A program made the translations under genes and the position numbers. From Prosthecobacter debontii (GTDB lineage: Bacteria; Verrucomicrobiota; Verrucomicrobiia; Verrucomicrobiales; Akkermansiaceae): 48,337 bases of DNA. The stretch is from positions 1 to 48,337 of the forward strand of contig CAMBQC010000004.1 in the NCBI GenBank assembly GCA_945869855.1. Reading direction: 5' to 3'. Positions 34,977 to 46,694 of the stretch are shown piece by piece. Under the pieces are notes generated by a model. That model was not told the DNA's origin. It was given only the letters and a program-made list of their open reading frames with translations, and did no database searches. Each line of letters starts with the position of its first letter. Position 1 is the stretch's first letter.

Positions 34977-37385
34977 ATGAGCGATCCGCAACCCATAGAC
35001 GAGCCGACGAAGCGGCAATGGCTCGGCTACTGGAGCATGATCGTGCAGCAGACGCAGAACGCGTTTAACGACAAGGCGGCGCAGTTTATCCTGATCCCGT
35101 TGGGCGGTGCGGTGGGTTACGCCGTGGAGTCTGCGGCGGGGATTATGATCGCGCTGCCTTTCGTTCTCTTCGCGCCGCTGGCGGGGTGGATGAGCGACCG
35201 CTTCTCCAAACGGACTGTGATGCTAGGAGCGGCGATCGCGCAGGTGCTAATCCTCGCGCTGATCTGTGCGGCCGTGTTTTTGAAAAGCATGCCGCTCGCG
35301 CTGTTGGGGTTTTTCCTTCTGGCCGTGCAATCGGCGTTTTTCAGTCCGGCGAAGATTGGGATCAACAAGGAACTGGTCGGCTCGAAGCATCTCGGCTTCG
35401 CGGCGGGAGTGCAGCAGATGCTCGCGATGCTTGCGATCATGGCGGGGCAGATCGTGGCGGGCTGGTGGTATGACATGCGTTACGAATCGCTCGGTTCGAT
35501 TCCAGAAAAAGGGTGGGAGGCGGCGCTGTTTCCCTTGGTGCTGCTGGCTTGTTGTTCGGTGCCGGCGGTGGGGCTAGCGCTCTCGATTCCGAAGGTGCCG
35601 GCGCAGGGCGGCGCGAAGCTTTCCTGTAAACACCTCGTCAGTCATTTCAAGGATCTCAACGAGTTGTGGCGGGATCTCGGGCTTCGGCGGGCTTCCTTTG
35701 GCGTGGCGTATTTCTGGGGTTTTGCGGCGTTCATCAACCTGTGGTCGGTGAAAGTAGCGGGTTCGCTGACCGCAGGCGGCGTGGGTTTCGGGACGATGTC
35801 CTCGATGTTCATGGCGGCCGCCTCGCTGGGGATGGCGGTGGGCTTCGGGTTCGCATCCTTTCTGCTGAGGAAACGGATCGAGCTGGGCTGGGTGCCACTT
35901 GCGGGGATCGCAATGACGGTGTGTGCGCTGACTCTGGCCTTTCTGCCGCCGCCTGGCTTGCCGTTCCTCATCGGCCTGGGGCTGGTGGCGTTTTTCGCGG
36001 CGCTATTTCTCGCTCCGCTCAACGCCTGGATGCAGGATCGTTACCCGGCGGACAAGCGCGGCGAGCTGCAATCGGCGGTGAACCTACAGGACTGTTTCGC
36101 GGGGATCATCGCAGTGGCTTTGATCGAGGGGCTTCATCTACTGTCGGTATGGATGGGCTTCACTGCGCTGGAGGGATTCAAAATGCAGATGCTCGTGATC
36201 GGCCTTACCTGCGGGGTGATGACGTGGTATATCCTCCGCATCCTGCCGGCTGATTTCATCAGGCTGGTATGCCTCGCGGCGGTGAAAACGCTCTACCGGA
36301 TCAAGGTTTCCGGAGCCGAGCGTATCCCGAAAACCGGTGGCGTCCTGTTGTTGCCGAACCACATCACCTTCGCCGACGCGTTTTTCCTCTCCGCCGCGAG
36401 CGACAGGCCGCTGCGCTTCGTGATGGACGACACCTTTATGGCCAGCAAGGTGATCCGTTTTTCCGTGAAACTGTTCGATGCGGTGCCGATCCGCCGGGAG
36501 CAGCCGCTGGAGGCGATTCGTAAGACCATTGCAGCGCTCGAAAGCGGGCACGTCGTCGTGCTTTTCCCCGAAGGTCAGCTCACCCGCACCGGCGGCCTGT
36601 GCAAGCTGGAGCGCGGCTTCGAGCTGATCGCGAGAAAGGTGAAATGCCCGATCCTGCCGCTATGGGTCGATGGCTTGTGGGGCTCCATTTTCTCTTTTGA
36701 GCGTGGCCGTTTTTTCCGGAAAATCCCGCACCGTGTGCCGTATGGATTGTCCATTGCGATCGGTGAGGAAATCACTGGAAAACCTGATCGGGAAATCATG
36801 CGCGACGCCTTGCTAAAAGCCTCGTCCGAGGCAGTGGTCGCGAGGTTTCCGCACAACACCAAGTCCGCGAAGCTCAACGGCCACCAGCTCACTCAGCTCG
36901 ACGCGTTGCCACGCGGAGGGACGTTGCATGTGCTGGAGGGGGATGTGCCGGATGGCCTGCTCGAAGTGCTCATGGAGTTCGCGCGGCAGGCGAAGGGGAA
37001 AGTGATTGTCCTACAGGATTTTGTCCGTGGTGCGGGCAGCGTATGGATCGGCGGGGAAAATTTGCGCAGGCGGATGACGGCTTCGGAAAATCCCGGCGAG
37101 CCGATACGTTTTTTTGATTTCGGCGCGAACGTATTCGTTCCGTTCGGAATGGAGGGCGTGATTCATCTGCCCTGCCTCGCGGTGAACGGGCTGGTCGTTG
37201 CGATATCCTTGATTGATCCGCCCATGTCCGATGCGCGCTGTGAGTTCCAGACCGGACACAAGCCGGACTCATGGGGCAAGCTCCTCCCCGGTTGGCACAT
37301 CGCAGACGGGAAACTTTTCCCCGGCGGCCACGCGCTGCCCGATGGCGCGAAGCTCGACGGCGAGTGTTTCCTCATGCGAACCTAG
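34977..37385 (+). CDS. LplT-like MFS domain fused to PlsC acyltransferase with unassigned C-terminal domain
   Basis: 802 residues. Residues about 10-425 are an MFS transporter of the lysophospholipid-flippase LplT type (QQTQNAFNDKAAQF at the start). Residues about 430-635 are a PlsC acyltransferase with NHITFAD (H462, D467, the HX4D motif) and FPEG at 530-533. The last roughly 165 residues (from GGTLHVLEGDVPDG) match nothing I recognise. Aas-type proteins carry an AMP-binding acyl-ACP synthetase here, but no such motif is seen. It probably flips lysophospholipid inward and re-acylates it at the inner membrane. Its stop shares the palindrome CTAG with the convergent gene. Confidence 0.85.
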   Translation: MSDPQPIDEPTKRQWLGYWSMIVQQTQNAFNDKAAQFILIPLGGAVGYAVESAAGIMIALPFVLFAPLAGWMSDRFSKRTVMLGAAIAQVLILALICAAVFLKSMPLALLGFFLLAVQSAFFSPAKIGINKELVGSKHLGFAAGVQQMLAMLAIMAGQIVAGWWYDMRYESLGSIPEKGWEAALFPLVLLACCSVPAVGLALSIPKVPAQGGAKLSCKHLVSHFKDLNELWRDLGLRRASFGVAYFWGFAAFINLWSVKVAGSLTAGGVGFGTMSSMFMAAASLGMAVGFGFASFLLRKRIELGWVPLAGIAMTVCALTLAFLPPPGLPFLIGLGLVAFFAALFLAPLNAWMQDRYPADKRGELQSAVNLQDCFAGIIAVALIEGLHLLSVWMGFTALEGFKMQMLVIGLTCGVMTWYILRILPADFIRLVCLAAVKTLYRIKVSGAERIPKTGGVLLLPNHITFADAFFLSAASDRPLRFVMDDTFMASKVIRFSVKLFDAVPIRREQPLEAIRKTIAALESGHVVVLFPEGQLTRTGGLCKLERGFELIARKVKCPILPLWVDGLWGSIFSFERGRFFRKIPHRVPYGLSIAIGEEITGKPDREIMRDALLKASSEAVVARFPHNTKSAKLNGHQLTQLDALPRGGTLHVLEGDVPDGLLEVLMEFARQAKGKVIVLQDFVRGAGSVWIGGENLRRRMTASENPGEPIRFFDFGANVFVPFGMEGVIHLPCLAVNGLVVAISLIDPPMSDARCEFQTGHKPDSWGKLLPGWHIADGKLFPGGHALPDGAKLDGECFLMRT

Positions 37386-38911
37386 TTCTTCCCGGCACCC
37401 TTGCCGATGCGGAACCCGAGATCCGGGCGGCGGGTCATGCGGTCGGCGACCCACTCCCGGCTGAGTGCGCCCTTGCCGGGGTTCAGGTAGGATCCACCGA
37501 TGATCACCCACAGCGGTTCTCCAAGTGGATTCGATGGGCTAGTGCGCGGTTCTCCAGTCCATTCGGAAACGGAACCGGCCATGCCCAGCAGGCCGTTTGA
37601 AGTGCGGTCTTCCGTTTCCTTGTTCACCGGCAGCATGTCGCTAACGGGGATTTGCGAAGGAACCTTCGAGCCGGTCATCAGGGCACCGAGCCAATGCTCC
37701 TGTGTCGGCAGGTAGGACTTCTTCCATTTCGCGTAGGCGAAAGCGTCCCACCAATCGACGCCCACCACCGGCGAGTGGATGTTGATTTCGCGATCTCCCC
37801 ACATCCCGCCCTCTTTCGCGGTGAGGTAAAGTTTTTCCCAGTCGTCCGGCATGTGATCGATCTTCGTTTCTGGCTGGTCAGGGTGATCGAAGGTAGTTTG
37901 ACCTCCTTCTTTGGCGAGGATGTTCAGGGTTTCGAGGAAATCCGCATAATCGCCGATTGTGACTTCGCAGGCGGCGATGGTGAAATCCGGTATACTAACC
38001 CGCAAGCCGTCCGGCGTATCATAATCGCCGGCTTTAATTTTGACCCAGCCGGGCAACGGGGCCCCCGAGGGTTGCTGTTTCTTGTTTTTAGATAGAGATA
38101 GAAAAACAACTGCGATGACAGCCACGGGCAGAACGGCGACGACCCATACGAAGTTGTTTTTTTTCACGGGACGGATCGCGGCGGTCGGCGGGGCTACCAC
38201 CTGCGAGGGGGTTGCTAGTTGCTGTTCGATCTGTTCGCAGTAACCGCGGATCTGCGACCATTTCAAAGGCTGGGTGATATCTTCGCCGCGCATCCAGGAG
38301 AGCAGAGTAAGGCAGCGCGTCACTCCCGGATGGTGTTGGTCGAGATTCAATTCCAGCACTTCACCCAGCTTGTGAACATCACGTAGCGAGTGATCTGGCA
38401 AACGCTCGCCTGCTATGACCAAGTTCTTGAGGCGGATGACCCCGTGCTTGTCCACGTGAATCGCATCCGGCCCCAGCGGCGCGGTGGCGTTGCCGTGGGA
38501 TTCGTAATAAATGTTCGCCTCCGCGACTCGCCGAAGGATGTGTACGAGACGCTGCGCCTTGATCTTTTCGCCATGCCTCGCACGGTCGGAGAGGGTTTCT
38601 CCGGGAAGCAGTTCATACGCATAATGGCAGATCCCGTTTTCCATCGTGGCCTCATAGATCGCGCCGACAAGAGGATGTTCTACCCCGGCCTTGGCGCGGA
38701 CATTCGCGATAAACTCCTCGCTTTCCACCCCCTCTTTGAGTTCCTCCACGAGTACCATCCGCCCCACGGAAACCTGCTTGGCCAGCCATGTCCTAGTCGT
38801 CTCGGTTTCTGCAAGACACTCCTGCGGCAGATAATCACCGAACTTTTTTTCCGCTTCACCCACTTCTTCGTGCACGTTGTTCATACTGGGTTTTTGTGGG
38901 TTGTATTTCAA
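37382..38911 (-). CDS. Membrane pseudokinase fused to formylglycine-generating-enzyme (SUMF1) domain
   Basis: 509 residues. Residues about 24-235 have the layout of a protein kinase, but every catalytic element is altered: the VAIK lysine is Glu56, the HRDLKPxN loop reads APLGPDA (144-150) and DFG is NLV (163-165). One membrane segment spans about 254-273. Residues 288-505 are an FGE/SUMF1-type domain (ACEVTIGDYADF, VVGVDWWDAFAYAKW, LLGMAGSVSEWTG, IGGSY, GFRIG) without obvious paired catalytic Cys. It is probably a signalling or scaffold protein with a cytoplasmic pseudokinase and external FGE fold. Its ATG overlaps the stop of the upstream TPR gene by four bases. Confidence 0.8.
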   Translation of the reverse strand: MKYNPQKPSMNNVHEEVGEAEKKFGDYLPQECLAETETTRTWLAKQVSVGRMVLVEELKEGVESEEFIANVRAKAGVEHPLVGAIYEATMENGICHYAYELLPGETLSDRARHGEKIKAQRLVHILRRVAEANIYYESHGNATAPLGPDAIHVDKHGVIRLKNLVIAGERLPDHSLRDVHKLGEVLELNLDQHHPGVTRCLTLLSWMRGEDITQPLKWSQIRGYCEQIEQQLATPSQVVAPPTAAIRPVKKNNFVWVVAVLPVAVIAVVFLSLSKNKKQQPSGAPLPGWVKIKAGDYDTPDGLRVSIPDFTIAACEVTIGDYADFLETLNILAKEGGQTTFDHPDQPETKIDHMPDDWEKLYLTAKEGGMWGDREINIHSPVVGVDWWDAFAYAKWKKSYLPTQEHWLGALMTGSKVPSQIPVSDMLPVNKETEDRTSNGLLGMAGSVSEWTGEPRTSPSNPLGEPLWVIIGGSYLNPGKGALSREWVADRMTRRPDLGFRIGKGAGKN

Positions 38912-39978
38912 TCGCCCGGCAGAGGATTAAGAAGCGGAATGTCAGGATCGAAATTTGGCGGGAGGATATCTTGGTCCAGAAACTCGGGGAAATCGCCCGG
39001 CTGCTCTCCGGCGGGTGCCGCTTGACCGATCCTCGCCGCTAGGTCGCGCGGCCATGCCTGCACATCGAGCACCTCGCCTTTATACCTAAGCGTTACGACC
39101 TGGCCGTAGTAGCTGAGATCGCCGAAGAGGTGCGCCGTCTGCTCGTCGCGCAGTGGAATCCGGTAATTCACGCGTAGGGATTCTTCCCCCGCCGCCCAAT
39201 CGAAGGGCATGGTAACCCACGAGTGCTGCGCCCATGCTTCCTCTTCACTCGCAAGCGGGACGATCCTGCCTTTATCGGTTTTGTTGAAAAAAAGCACTTC
39301 CATCTGTAATTCGGGCGTTTCGATTTCCTGGCCAGGCGCTTTCTGGACGGGAACGGTCAGCACCACCCGCTGCCCACCCGCCGCCTTCGCGTCGTTGAAA
39401 ATACGCACGCGGCCGAGCGCGAGTTTGCCGCGCATGTCACCGGGTTGCTCGAAGCCGTCGCGCAATTTCGCGGCGGCTGCCTCGTAAAGGTTTCCCGCAC
39501 TGGAAACGCCGAGCTGGAATACCTGCTCGTAATAATCCGCCGCCTTTTCATAGACGCCCATCATTTCGTGGACCATGCCGAGTTCGTAGAGCACAGTGGG
39601 ATCGCCCGGGGATTCCCCAAGCGCCTCTTCTAGCTTCACGATCGCGGCACCCATGTCGCCCGCGATCCGTGCCTTTCGCGCTTCGGTAACAAGTAGCTCC
39701 GAGCGGGGATCCGCGATGGCTGGCGTGACGAGTTGCTCCGGCTCGGGCACGGGCGGCAATACCGGCTCCGCCTTCGCCATCGGTTTCGCGGAGAGATCGT
39801 TGGGCATCGGCACGCTGATCCGGATCGGCACTAGCTTCTCCACTTTCTTTTCGATGATTTTCACCTGCCGCCCTTCCTCGACGCGTACCGCCAGCGCCAT
39901 GCCGGCGATCAGGAGCTGCGAAAAAGCCATCAGCCCGAGGCCGCAGCAGGCTAGAGTGAACAAGCGGTTACCTTTCAT
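38908..39978 (-). CDS. Membrane-anchored TPR protein, partner of the pseudokinase-FGE gene
   Basis: 356 residues. A membrane anchor at about 10-30 (LACCGLGLMAFSQLLIAGMALA) is followed by a proline-rich linker (VLPPVPEPEQL) and TPR-like helices from about 95 to 170 (ILYELGMVHEMMGVYEKAADYYEQ-type pattern). The remainder to about 320 looks beta-rich, with no named family, and the tail is Asp/Pro-rich (PPNFDPDIPLLNPLPGD). It overlaps the next gene by ATGA, so the two proteins are probably made together and may form one membrane complex. Promoter expected between 39979 and 40051. Confidence 0.7.
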   Translation of the reverse strand: MKGNRLFTLACCGLGLMAFSQLLIAGMALAVRVEEGRQVKIIEKKVEKLVPIRISVPMPNDLSAKPMAKAEPVLPPVPEPEQLVTPAIADPRSELLVTEARKARIAGDMGAAIVKLEEALGESPGDPTVLYELGMVHEMMGVYEKAADYYEQVFQLGVSSAGNLYEAAAAKLRDGFEQPGDMRGKLALGRVRIFNDAKAAGGQRVVLTVPVQKAPGQEIETPELQMEVLFFNKTDKGRIVPLASEEEAWAQHSWVTMPFDWAAGEESLRVNYRIPLRDEQTAHLFGDLSYYGQVVTLRYKGEVLDVQAWPRDLAARIGQAAPAGEQPGDFPEFLDQDILPPNFDPDIPLLNPLPGD

Positions 39979-42890: not shown

Positions 42891-42986
42891 TCCAAACAAA
42901 TAGAAACTTGCATACTAGGATTTCCAGCGCCAACAGACATTCAGAGGTCTGGAACTTTGTATAGGCTTACTTTACCTACGTGCCTC

Positions 42987-45900
42987 ATGAACCTTCGATC
43001 TTTCACCCTAATCGCCGGTTGCCTGCTTTGTATTCACGCGGGTGACTTGCATGCGCAGAAGGTGCCGCCAACGGAGGCACGCACGCGGTTTGATATCGAG
43101 GATGGCGGCAGGAAGCGCGGGTTCGAAATCGCGACGGATGAGTTTGCTGAGAAAGCGGCTGCAGGTGAGAAGTCCACGAAGGCGACCAAGCAGGCCAACA
43201 ACTTCGGCGAACTGCGGCAGATGGCTCGTGATGCTGAAGCGGTGACGGGCAATAAACAGGACATCATACTCTATGAAACCGGAAAGCCGAGAAGCGAAAC
43301 CACGCGGCGTGTTTTGACACGGCAGGTGTTGGTGAAGTTTGTGCCGGGGTTTGATGAAAAAGCGGCGCAGGCAGCCATCGGGGCTGTTGTGACGAAGAAG
43401 CCGAGCTATGCGCCGGATCATGTGATCTTCACACTGCGTGGCGCGGGTGACTCCCTGCTCGTTCTGGATAAACTCCGCGCGCTTCCGGGCGTGGTGAGCG
43501 CGGAGCCGCTGCTAGCGCGTATCCAAAAACGCAGGCTGCTGCCGAATGACACGTTCTTCTCATACAACGCGGCGAACCCAGGTTATCAGTGGCATTTGAG
43601 AAATACGGGTCAATCTCCCGGCGTGGCGGGCGTGGATGTCAATGTGACGTCGGTTTGGGACAGTTATCTCGGCACCGGCATCCGCATGGGAATCGTGGAT
43701 GACGGGCTGGAGGTTGCGCATCCGGACATCTCGCCAAATGCAGACACTGCGAACGACCATGACTGGAATGATGCGACTCCGGAGGATCCAACTGGCAATC
43801 CGTCGAGCGACACGCACGGCACGGCCTGCGCCGGTGTGGCCGGTGCGCGTGGCAACAACGGCAGCGGCGTGAGCGGCGCGGCTCCACAAGCGACACTGGT
43901 CGGGCTACGACTGATCGCAGGCAATGTGTCGGATGCGGACGAAGCGGAGGCTTTGACCTGGAAGAACGACATCATCCACTTGTATAGCAATTCGTGGGGG
44001 CCTGCAGATGATGGCGCGGACCTGCGCGATGCGGGACCGCTCGTAAAAGCGGCCTTTGCCAACGCTGCGATTGTGGGACGCGGTGGCAAGGGCAGTATTT
44101 GGCTGTGGGCCGGAGGAAACGGCGGCAGCTCGCAGGACAACTCGAACTACGACGGCTATGCAAACTCGATCTACACCATCGCGGTCGGCGCGCTTAATAG
44201 TTCGGGTGCCCGCAGCCGCTACTCGGAGCCGGGGGCGAATGTGCTGGTGTGCGCACCGTCCAATGACACGGCCTCCGGACACCGCGGCATCACCACGACC
44301 TCGACGAACGGCAGCTACATTCATGACTTTGGCGGCACCTCCTCCGCGACGCCGCTGGCTGCCGGCGTGGTGGCACTGCTGCTGCAAAGCAAGCCCACTC
44401 TCGGCTGGCGCGACGTGAAGGAAATCCTTCTGCGCAGCGCGACGAAAATCAACCCCACGCACTCCGATTGGGTGAACAACAGCGCGGGCTATCATTTCAA
44501 TCACGATTTCGGAGCCGGTTTGATCAATGCGCAGGCCGCGGTGACACTGGCGAACACTTGGTCGAATCTGGGGCCGATGGTGACGCAATCCCAAGCTCAG
44601 AACGGACTTGCTGTGGCGATCCCAGATAATAACGCGACGGGCATCACACGCACCTTCACCATACCCAGCACGGTCCTCATGCGGGTGGAGCATGCGACGG
44701 TGAAAGTGACCGCCACTCACGGCCTACGTGGAAATTTGAACGTCACATTGACCTCTCCGACAGGCACGGTGAGCAAACTTTTCAACGCACACACGAATGA
44801 TGGCAACCTGAACCTCGACTGGACTTTTTCCACCGTGCGGCACTGGGGCGAAGCCGCCTCCGGCAACTGGAGCGTAAAGGTGAGTGACACCATTGCCGGC
44901 AATGCGGGCACACTCAACAGCGTGGCGCTGACTCTTCATGGCACCAATATCACACCACCAAGCGCGCCACCGACGATCACTAGCCCGCTGGTGGCGGGTG
45001 CGAACGCGGAGTCCCCTTTCAGTTATCAAATCGCGGCGTCACTGAATCCGCAGTCATTTTCCGCCAGCGGACTTCCTGCGGGGCTGAGTTTGAGTGCGAG
45101 TGGCCTCATCAGCGGCACGCCGGCGACGCAAGGCGTGAGCAATATTACCATCGGCGCGTCGAACAGCCTCGGCACGGGCACGGCGACGCTTGTTCTGACC
45201 GTAGGACCACGCCTGCCGACGCCGCCGGTGATCACCAGCAGTCTTGCGGTGGCAGCTGTGGTGAATGTGCCTCTCAACGTCCAGATTACCGCCACGAACA
45301 GCCCGACAAGCTACTCCGCGAGCAACCTGCCAGCCGGGGTCACGGTGAACACCCAAACGGGTGCCATCAGCGGCACACCGACGGTGATCGGCACCTTCAA
45401 TGCGAGTATCTCCGCGACGAATGCGGATGGAGCGGACACCGATACGCTGGTCATCACCGTCAGCGCCACTGCGTCTGCTTTGGCGCAGGCGCTCGACGCA
45501 CCTCAGCTCATCTTCACCACCGGCGGCGACGTGCCGTGGATCACTCCCGCCACAGATACACATGATGGCGTTGATGCCGCGCAGAACGGCAATATTTCCG
45601 ACAGTCAGCAGAGCTGGATCGAAACGACGGTGACGGGACCCGCCTTTATCTCGTTCTGGTTCCGGCTATCGTCGGAGTCGGGTTATGACTTCTTCCGCTT
45701 CTCCATCGATGGCGAGGAACTGTGGTTTAGCGACGGCGAACACGCTTGGCGTCGTCTCGGTTTTCACGTGCCTCCGGGCATCCACACGGCGCGGTGGAAC
45801 TACACGAAGGATTATGCCGATTCATCGGGTTCTGACACGCTGTGGCTCGATCAGGTCGCGGTGGATGGAGAACAGATGTTCCTCAGCACGGTGCTGGATA

Positions 45901-46694
45901 ATGCGAACCTGAGCTGGCGCATGCCCGGCCTTGGCACCTGGACCATGCAGGACCGCCGCACCATCGACAACGTGGACGCGCTGATCAGTCCCATCTATCT
46001 TGCGGATGGCCGCAGCAGCAGCATCGAGACGCCGGTGACGGGGCCGGGCACGGTGAGCTTCGCGTGGACGGTTTCATCAGAAGCGAATTATGATTATTTC
46101 CGCTTTGAAATCGACGACACGGTCAGCGACCAGATCAGCGGCAACAGCGGTGGTAACAACATCCCCTGGGCTACGCTCACTCGGGATATTCCGGCCGGTT
46201 CGCACGTGCTGCGCTGGCGCTACATCAAGGATGGAAATGGCGAAGATGGTCTCGATGCCGCATGGCTGGACAACATCCAATACAGTCCCGCCTTTGCCAC
46301 CGGCCCGCCATACGCGCAGTGGCTCAACGGTCAATTCCCCGAGGACCTGCTTGGCAACGCCATGCACACCGGCCCGGACATCGACTACGATGGTGACGGG
46401 CGTAGCAATCTGGAAGAGTATGCTTTCGGTGGATTGCCTATGACGCCTGATAGGGCACCCAATCCGATCTCCATCCAGCGGCAGGTCAGTGAGATGTTCT
46501 TCGAATACAGCCGCGAGGTCTCTAAAACCGATCTAATCCTCACCCCGCGAGTTTCCCAAAACCTGGCGATTTGGTCGAACACGACCTCCGAATTTGTCGC
46601 GCTTGACTCCGGACGGAACCACTACCGCGTCCGCGTGCCGTTGACGGAAGGACGGAAGTTCATCCATCTGCAGGCGACGTTGCAGCAACCGTGA
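42987..46694 (+). CDS. Large secreted subtilisin-family protease with P domain and Ig-like repeats
   Basis: 1235 residues from ATG 42987 with a signal peptide (MNLRSFTLIAGCLLCIHAG). A propeptide runs to about 185, where LLPNDTFFSYN begins the kexin-like S8 domain. The catalytic triad is Asp238 (IVDDGLEVAHPD), His277 (DTHGTACAG) and Ser452 (GGTSSATPLAAG). A proprotein-convertase P domain follows (about 530-650), then two putative-Ig repeats (about 656-735 and 745-825), two tandem beta-rich repeats of about 130 residues from 834, and a calcium-loop tail DIDYDGDGRSNLEEYA near 1131. It is an extracellular or surface protease. The longer TTG start at 42957 is less likely. Confidence 0.9.
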   Translation: MNLRSFTLIAGCLLCIHAGDLHAQKVPPTEARTRFDIEDGGRKRGFEIATDEFAEKAAAGEKSTKATKQANNFGELRQMARDAEAVTGNKQDIILYETGKPRSETTRRVLTRQVLVKFVPGFDEKAAQAAIGAVVTKKPSYAPDHVIFTLRGAGDSLLVLDKLRALPGVVSAEPLLARIQKRRLLPNDTFFSYNAANPGYQWHLRNTGQSPGVAGVDVNVTSVWDSYLGTGIRMGIVDDGLEVAHPDISPNADTANDHDWNDATPEDPTGNPSSDTHGTACAGVAGARGNNGSGVSGAAPQATLVGLRLIAGNVSDADEAEALTWKNDIIHLYSNSWGPADDGADLRDAGPLVKAAFANAAIVGRGGKGSIWLWAGGNGGSSQDNSNYDGYANSIYTIAVGALNSSGARSRYSEPGANVLVCAPSNDTASGHRGITTTSTNGSYIHDFGGTSSATPLAAGVVALLLQSKPTLGWRDVKEILLRSATKINPTHSDWVNNSAGYHFNHDFGAGLINAQAAVTLANTWSNLGPMVTQSQAQNGLAVAIPDNNATGITRTFTIPSTVLMRVEHATVKVTATHGLRGNLNVTLTSPTGTVSKLFNAHTNDGNLNLDWTFSTVRHWGEAASGNWSVKVSDTIAGNAGTLNSVALTLHGTNITPPSAPPTITSPLVAGANAESPFSYQIAASLNPQSFSASGLPAGLSLSASGLISGTPATQGVSNITIGASNSLGTGTATLVLTVGPRLPTPPVITSSLAVAAVVNVPLNVQITATNSPTSYSASNLPAGVTVNTQTGAISGTPTVIGTFNASISATNADGADTDTLVITVSATASALAQALDAPQLIFTTGGDVPWITPATDTHDGVDAAQNGNISDSQQSWIETTVTGPAFISFWFRLSSESGYDFFRFSIDGEELWFSDGEHAWRRLGFHVPPGIHTARWNYTKDYADSSGSDTLWLDQVAVDGEQMFLSTVLDNANLSWRMPGLGTWTMQDRRTIDNVDALISPIYLADGRSSSIETPVTGPGTVSFAWTVSSEANYDYFRFEIDDTVSDQISGNSGGNNIPWATLTRDIPAGSHVLRWRYIKDGNGEDGLDAAWLDNIQYSPAFATGPPYAQWLNGQFPEDLLGNAMHTGPDIDYDGDGRSNLEEYAFGGLPMTPDRAPNPISIQRQVSEMFFEYSREVSKTDLILTPRVSQNLAIWSNTTSEFVALDSGRNHYRVRVPLTEGRKFIHLQATLQQP

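Follow-up and report, generated by a model that had tools for sequence, protein, structure and literature searches.

What does a membrane protein do when both of its recognizable enzyme folds have lost their catalytic residues? A 48,337-nucleotide stretch of DNA from Prosthecobacter debontii, here called the window, encodes such a protein, K, in which a kinase-like domain is joined through a membrane helix to an FGE-like domain. Its gene follows that of a TPR-containing membrane protein, T. A first-pass annotation of the window had read the pair as an inner-membrane complex, for signalling or as a scaffold, that contains two dead-enzyme folds. This reading fits our results, as a kinase fold is present, its catalytic residues are lost, and the pair is conserved. 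If anything, it was understated: K of relatives starts with a further, third domain, a receiver that has degenerated within the order, and genes for a secreted protein, Z, and a peptidoglycan amidase are linked to the pair.

Gene boundaries and domain architecture

Both open reading frames lie on the minus strand where the annotation had placed them. The ORF list gives K as a frame of 509 aa (37382-38911) with a TTG start at 38911. We consider this start doubtful: most K orthologs at the genus level begin at the methionine equivalent to the ATG at 38884, so that K probably starts there, 23 nt past the stop codon of T (Table 1). The ATGA overlap that had been described for the two genes is actually TTGA, and arises from the doubtful TTG. 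Such an overlap was also rejected as conserved translational coupling, since the -4 overlaps in this genus stem from GTG or TTG codons upstream of the conserved methionine. A gene for an MFS-acyltransferase (LplT/Aas-like; 34977-37385) is convergent with K, and the stop codons of the two overlap by 4 nt (37382-37385). The window further encodes a large secreted subtilase with a P-domain and putative Ig (He_PIG) repeats (42957-46694).

Table 1. Positions in the window of the two genes and of the domains they encode.
Feature	Position	Strand	Basis
Gene K, pseudokinase - TM - FGE-like, 500 aa from the conserved ATG	37382..38884	minus	ORF and ortholog comparison
Pseudokinase domain of K, residues 11-224	38213..38854	minus	Profile, AF2/Foldseek, alignment
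Sole transmembrane helix of K, residues 242-268	38081..38161	minus	AF2 model and sequence
FGE-like (PF03781) domain of K, residues 283-500; lacks both FGE cysteines and an EgtB-like HxxxHxE	37385..38038	minus	Pfam, ortholog profile
Gene T, 356 aa: N-terminal membrane anchor, Pro-rich linker, TPR, beta domain	38908..39978	minus	ORF, Pfam, model
N-terminal transmembrane anchor of T, residues 6-33	39880..39963	minus	Sequence
TPR helices of T, residues 91-174	39457..39708	minus	Pfam, structure model, Foldseek
Beta domain of T (186-308) plus last helix, residues 186-316	39031..39423	minus	Alignment, model

The description of T as a TPR membrane protein held, as both the membrane anchor and the TPR helices were recovered, and a beta domain can be added to it. 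Most of the conserved residues of T sit in this beta domain and the last helix, including P258, D260, E266, Y272, G292, Y299, D305, and P310. The domain matched nothing in Pfam and no fold in particular; Foldseek returned TPR proteins only.

Two folds without their catalytic residues

On its own, the K sequence of the window gave weak matches to the Pfam family PK_Tyr_Ser-Thr (E 0.15), to PknB_PASTA (E 3.7e-4), and to the PD-T4-6 kinase models of PADLOC (E 4.8e-8). A profile built from 30 K orthologs matched PknA of M. tuberculosis in its kinase half at 1.8e-22. An AF2 model of K, made from an alignment of 14 sequences, reached a pLDDT of ~80-93 over residues 11-222, and a Foldseek search with this model returned PknB, with a best TM of 0.65 among the matches listed. 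A kinase fold is thus present in K, and the annotation, which had staked its reading on structure prediction finding one, stands on this point.

It had likewise correctly listed the VAIK Lys, the catalytic Asp, the loop Asn, and DFG as lost. In the alignment, E47 replaces the VAIK Lys, T134-A135-P136 replaces HRD (with P136 at the Asp position), G138 replaces the Lys of HRDxK, A141 replaces the loop Asn, and N154-L155-V156 replaces DFG (with N154 at the Asp position). K proteins of the window and its genus have no G-loop and carry an acidic residue where the VAIK Lys would be; in the window, too few residues separate DFG from the following helix to form a normal activation segment. Among 79 distinct K sequences, not one has an Asp at the HRD or DFG position, and the latter is Asn in 74. 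Its predicted fold places K in the kinase superfamily, whose defining catalytic features it lacks. An active Hanks-type Ser/Thr kinase was rejected on these residues, all four of which are replaced. That K is non-catalytic is well supported by its sequence, from which we infer the loss of catalysis itself. A role in a defence system was also rejected, since the PADLOC matches are to generic kinase models and a single-copy core pair without defence neighbours does not fit it.

The single membrane helix joins this domain, as had been claimed, to an FGE-like half (PF03781, E 6.9e-17). The ortholog profile found its best structural-sequence match for this half in the catalysis-deficient SUMF2 (4.9e-33), and it matched the FGE-like domains of PorK/GldK at 3e-19. 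The annotation had seen no evident catalytic Cys here; across 79 K orthologs, no Cys occurs at the positions equivalent to C336 and C341 of FGE, nor elsewhere in that segment. The iron-binding pattern HxxxHxE of EgtB/SenA is absent from K of the window, which scores far below the cut-offs of the EgtB/SenA models. An FGE or EgtB/SenA enzyme was therefore rejected on the missing Cys and His motifs, and by predicted fold K is a member of the FGE-like family without its defining catalytic cysteines. The AF2 model is poor in this half. The FGE-like half is the better conserved of the two, with a mean pairwise identity of 42% versus 30% for the kinase half.

How the two folds came to be in this state is suggested by more distant relatives. 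In other families, K has a receiver-like domain at its N-terminus, joined in several other orders by a DUF4388 domain; on this domain comparison, K of the window is a reduced form of a receiver-bearing protein. Of 14 outgroup sequences aligned, 6 have the phospho-accepting Asp of the receiver; all 15 order-mates lack it and show E, S, A, G, N, or L at this position. K of the window has no receiver at all, and hence no phospho-accepting Asp by which to count as a response regulator. No histidine kinase was seen among the ten flanking genes checked near K orthologs with an intact receiver. Outgroup K proteins often keep the kinase G-loop and the VAIK Lys, and never the catalytic Asp. As the receiver is degenerate in order-mates, the G-loop and VAIK Lys are kept in outgroups, and the catalytic Asp is found nowhere, K of the window stands at the end of a series in which the receiver degenerated and was then lost, and in which ATP-site residues were lost as well. 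By the root of the sampled class, catalysis would already have been lost.

A conserved gene pair and its link to Z and an amidase

The annotation had proposed to look for the same gene pair in other Verrucomicrobiota. We sampled 59 relatives, 37 of the window's genus and 22 from other families of the order (Verrucomicrobiales), of which 57 had T and 53 a true K ortholog. In all 52 order relatives with both genes on one contig, covering six families, T and K were adjacent on the same strand with T first, while the genes flanking them varied. The pair is single-copy and near-universal in the order, and other orders of the class show the adjacency again in most of their sampled genomes; the pair is ancient. 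The second condition that the annotation had named as refuting its reading, a pair that is not conserved, therefore does not hold. The open-access literature searched contained no description of the pair, in line with its having been called undescribed; this is not proof of absence.

Comparison with two close relatives gave a dN/dS of 0.13-0.26 for the two globular domains of K and of ~0.1 for T, indicating that these are not decaying genes. Between K of the window and that of one relative (L031), dS rises from 0.17 over the FGE half to 0.55 over the kinase half, a contrast that could reflect intragenic recombination.

K is not indispensable, since T and Z persist without it in small-genome relatives. 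In four genomes, T is retained and a full K is not. In one (G046), K is reduced to fragments, and genome-wide searches of members of the genus with genomes of 1.5-2.1 Mb (G007, G030, and G033) found T and Z and no K ortholog. In two of these small genomes, checked at the T locus (L158 and L160), no K follows T. Some families of other orders also have T and Z without K. In one family (f14; L093:7866-8543, L095:6903-7952), only a receiver-like protein with DUF4388 lies between T and Z, as if the kinase, membrane, and FGE parts had been removed or not yet added. A family of another order (f12; G072, G090, G108, G115, and others) has a T homolog consisting mainly of the beta domain, with no detected Z and no strong K.

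Z, a secreted beta-rich protein without a Pfam match or a convincing PDB match, was present in 57 of the 59 relatives. It directly follows K in 17 of 21 order-mates outside the window's genus, and in several of these, K and Z are followed by genes for an Amidase_3 enzyme, NnrD/E, SppA, and a CPBP protein. In a sister genus (g18), T, K, and Z occur in this order in 18 of 18 genomes, although K fell below the strict K cut-off in 4 of the 18 and was read directly in one of them (L087). Within the window's genus, Z has been relocated away from T and K (C17 in the window genome), and the amidase, with a PF01520 match of 1.5e-48 in the window genome, still follows it. Of 54 relatives compared, 42 have Z next to the amidase, among them all genomes of the window's genus that were compared. 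Other orders show the arrangements T-REC/DUF4388-Z-amidase or T-K-Z-amidase. Because Z co-moves with the amidase, and T-K with Z, we propose an output in the envelope.

Part of this synteny may be neutral, since Z and the amidase are not neighbours in the sampled family f4 or in g18, and since the neighbours NnrD/E, SppA, and PabB look like unrelated housekeeping genes. The last of these, encoding a PabB-like aminodeoxychorismate synthase, lies divergently upstream of T in nine order-mates (e.g., L056, L057, and L058). Z also occurs in many other classes of the phylum without synteny to T and K. The FtsX ectodomain (PF18075) was found in 0 of 39 Verrucomicrobiales relatives and in 7 of 14 control genomes; its absence from the former may be due to divergence.

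A candidate non-catalytic regulator, its alternatives, and known systems

We consider it highly probable that K is a non-catalytic transmembrane regulator or scaffold. T and K would be two inner-membrane proteins of a single regulatory module, with the pseudokinase of K predicted in the cytoplasm and, across its one helix, the FGE-like domain in the periplasm, because orthologs carry a cytoplasmic receiver. The input may originally have been two-component-like, as older relatives of K carry this phosphorylatable-looking domain, sometimes with DUF4388; its phospho-Asp would have been lost in the window's order, and the receiver then deleted in the window's family. K would transmit a signal by binding and conformational change, without catalysis, and its periplasmic domain may be a binding module that meets T, with its TPR and beta domains, and the secreted Z. 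Such an assembly could tune cell-wall remodelling through the Z-linked Amidase_3, in the manner of FtsEX-EnvC-amidase and not by homology. That K feeds a periplasmic T-Z(-amidase) envelope module as part of a T-K-Z complex, whose existence we infer, is plausible, if a little short of an even chance. The peptidoglycan amidase as output of the module, which is deduced from gene order, is a more tentative proposal. The widest version is rather unlikely: a phylum-specific envelope control whose inner-membrane regulator consists of dead folds throughout (pseudo-receiver, pseudokinase, and pseudo-FGE) and acts on a periplasmic TPR-Z-amidase complex, replacing amidase control of the FtsEX-EnvC type in Verrucomicrobiota, including gut Akkermansia-like bacteria.

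Other readings draw on the same data. T, K, and Z could form an envelope assembly or secretion scaffold without peptidoglycan output, in which the FGE-like domain plays a structural part like that in PorK/GldK rings and the pseudokinase ties it to a cytoplasmic partner. The profile matches to PorK/GldK and SUMF2, the higher conservation of the FGE-like half, and the near-universal, single-copy occurrence of the pair would all suit this. The deeper K proteins with intact receiver and ATP-site residues, however, point to signalling, and the conserved neighbourhood lacks secretion or pilus genes, on which ground a secretion or pilus operon was rejected. We regard such a scaffold as a minority possibility.

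Less probable still is that K senses sugars, mucin, or other ligands outside the cell. FGE/C-type-lectin folds often bind ligands, and K could use its lectin-like FGE fold in this way, with a real linkage to T, a cytoplasmic output, and no link to a cell-wall enzyme. Yet a sensor normally keeps its output domain, whereas the cytoplasmic part in the window's family consists only of a dead kinase, and the linkage to Z and the amidase points to the periplasm. Least probable of all is that K is an atypical active kinase or a pseudokinase-type transferase. SelO and Fam20-type kinases do use residues other than the canonical ones, and part of the family has its pocket under constraint, given that deeper K proteins keep the VAIK Lys and G-loop and that Asn is nearly invariant at the DFG position. 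Against this, K of the window's genus has an acidic residue in place of that Lys and no G-loop, and the activation segment in the window is too short.

Bacterial pseudokinases and FGE-like binding domains are each known singly; here, the two are joined across the inner membrane. The stepwise loss of receiver, ATP-site, and catalytic residues would offer a natural series from an active signalling protein to a scaffold. If the amidase link is true, it identifies candidates for regulating cell-wall splitting in a phylum without a detected FtsX ectodomain, the envelope biology of which has been little studied.

Each part of K resembles a known system. Like the Hanks-type kinases PknA/PknB, it has a kinase fold, a single membrane helix, and an extracytoplasmic C-terminal domain; unlike them, it lacks catalytic residues, has a shortened activation segment, and carries an FGE-like domain instead of PASTA. 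It shares the PF03781 fold with the FGE/SUMF1 family, SUMF2 in particular, but has no FGE cysteine, and its FGE-like domain is fused through a membrane helix to a pseudokinase. PorK/GldK, the ring lipoproteins of the T9SS, use the domain structurally, but have no kinase part, and no T9SS genes were seen near T and K. Chlamydia Pkn1, which has an FGE-like part, is likewise a kinase-family protein of the PVC superphylum, but an active one, whereas the catalytic residues of K are missing. It has been reported as a validated, autophosphorylating, cytoplasmic kinase encoded outside any operon (PMC5177608). As an analogue, we propose FtsEX-EnvC-amidase, in which an inner-membrane complex relays a cytoplasmic signal to a periplasmic Amidase_3 through non-catalytic parts. 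The T-K-Z module has no homology to it, and neither an ABC transporter nor a LytM protein; K and its partners may work like FtsEX-EnvC without being a member of that system.
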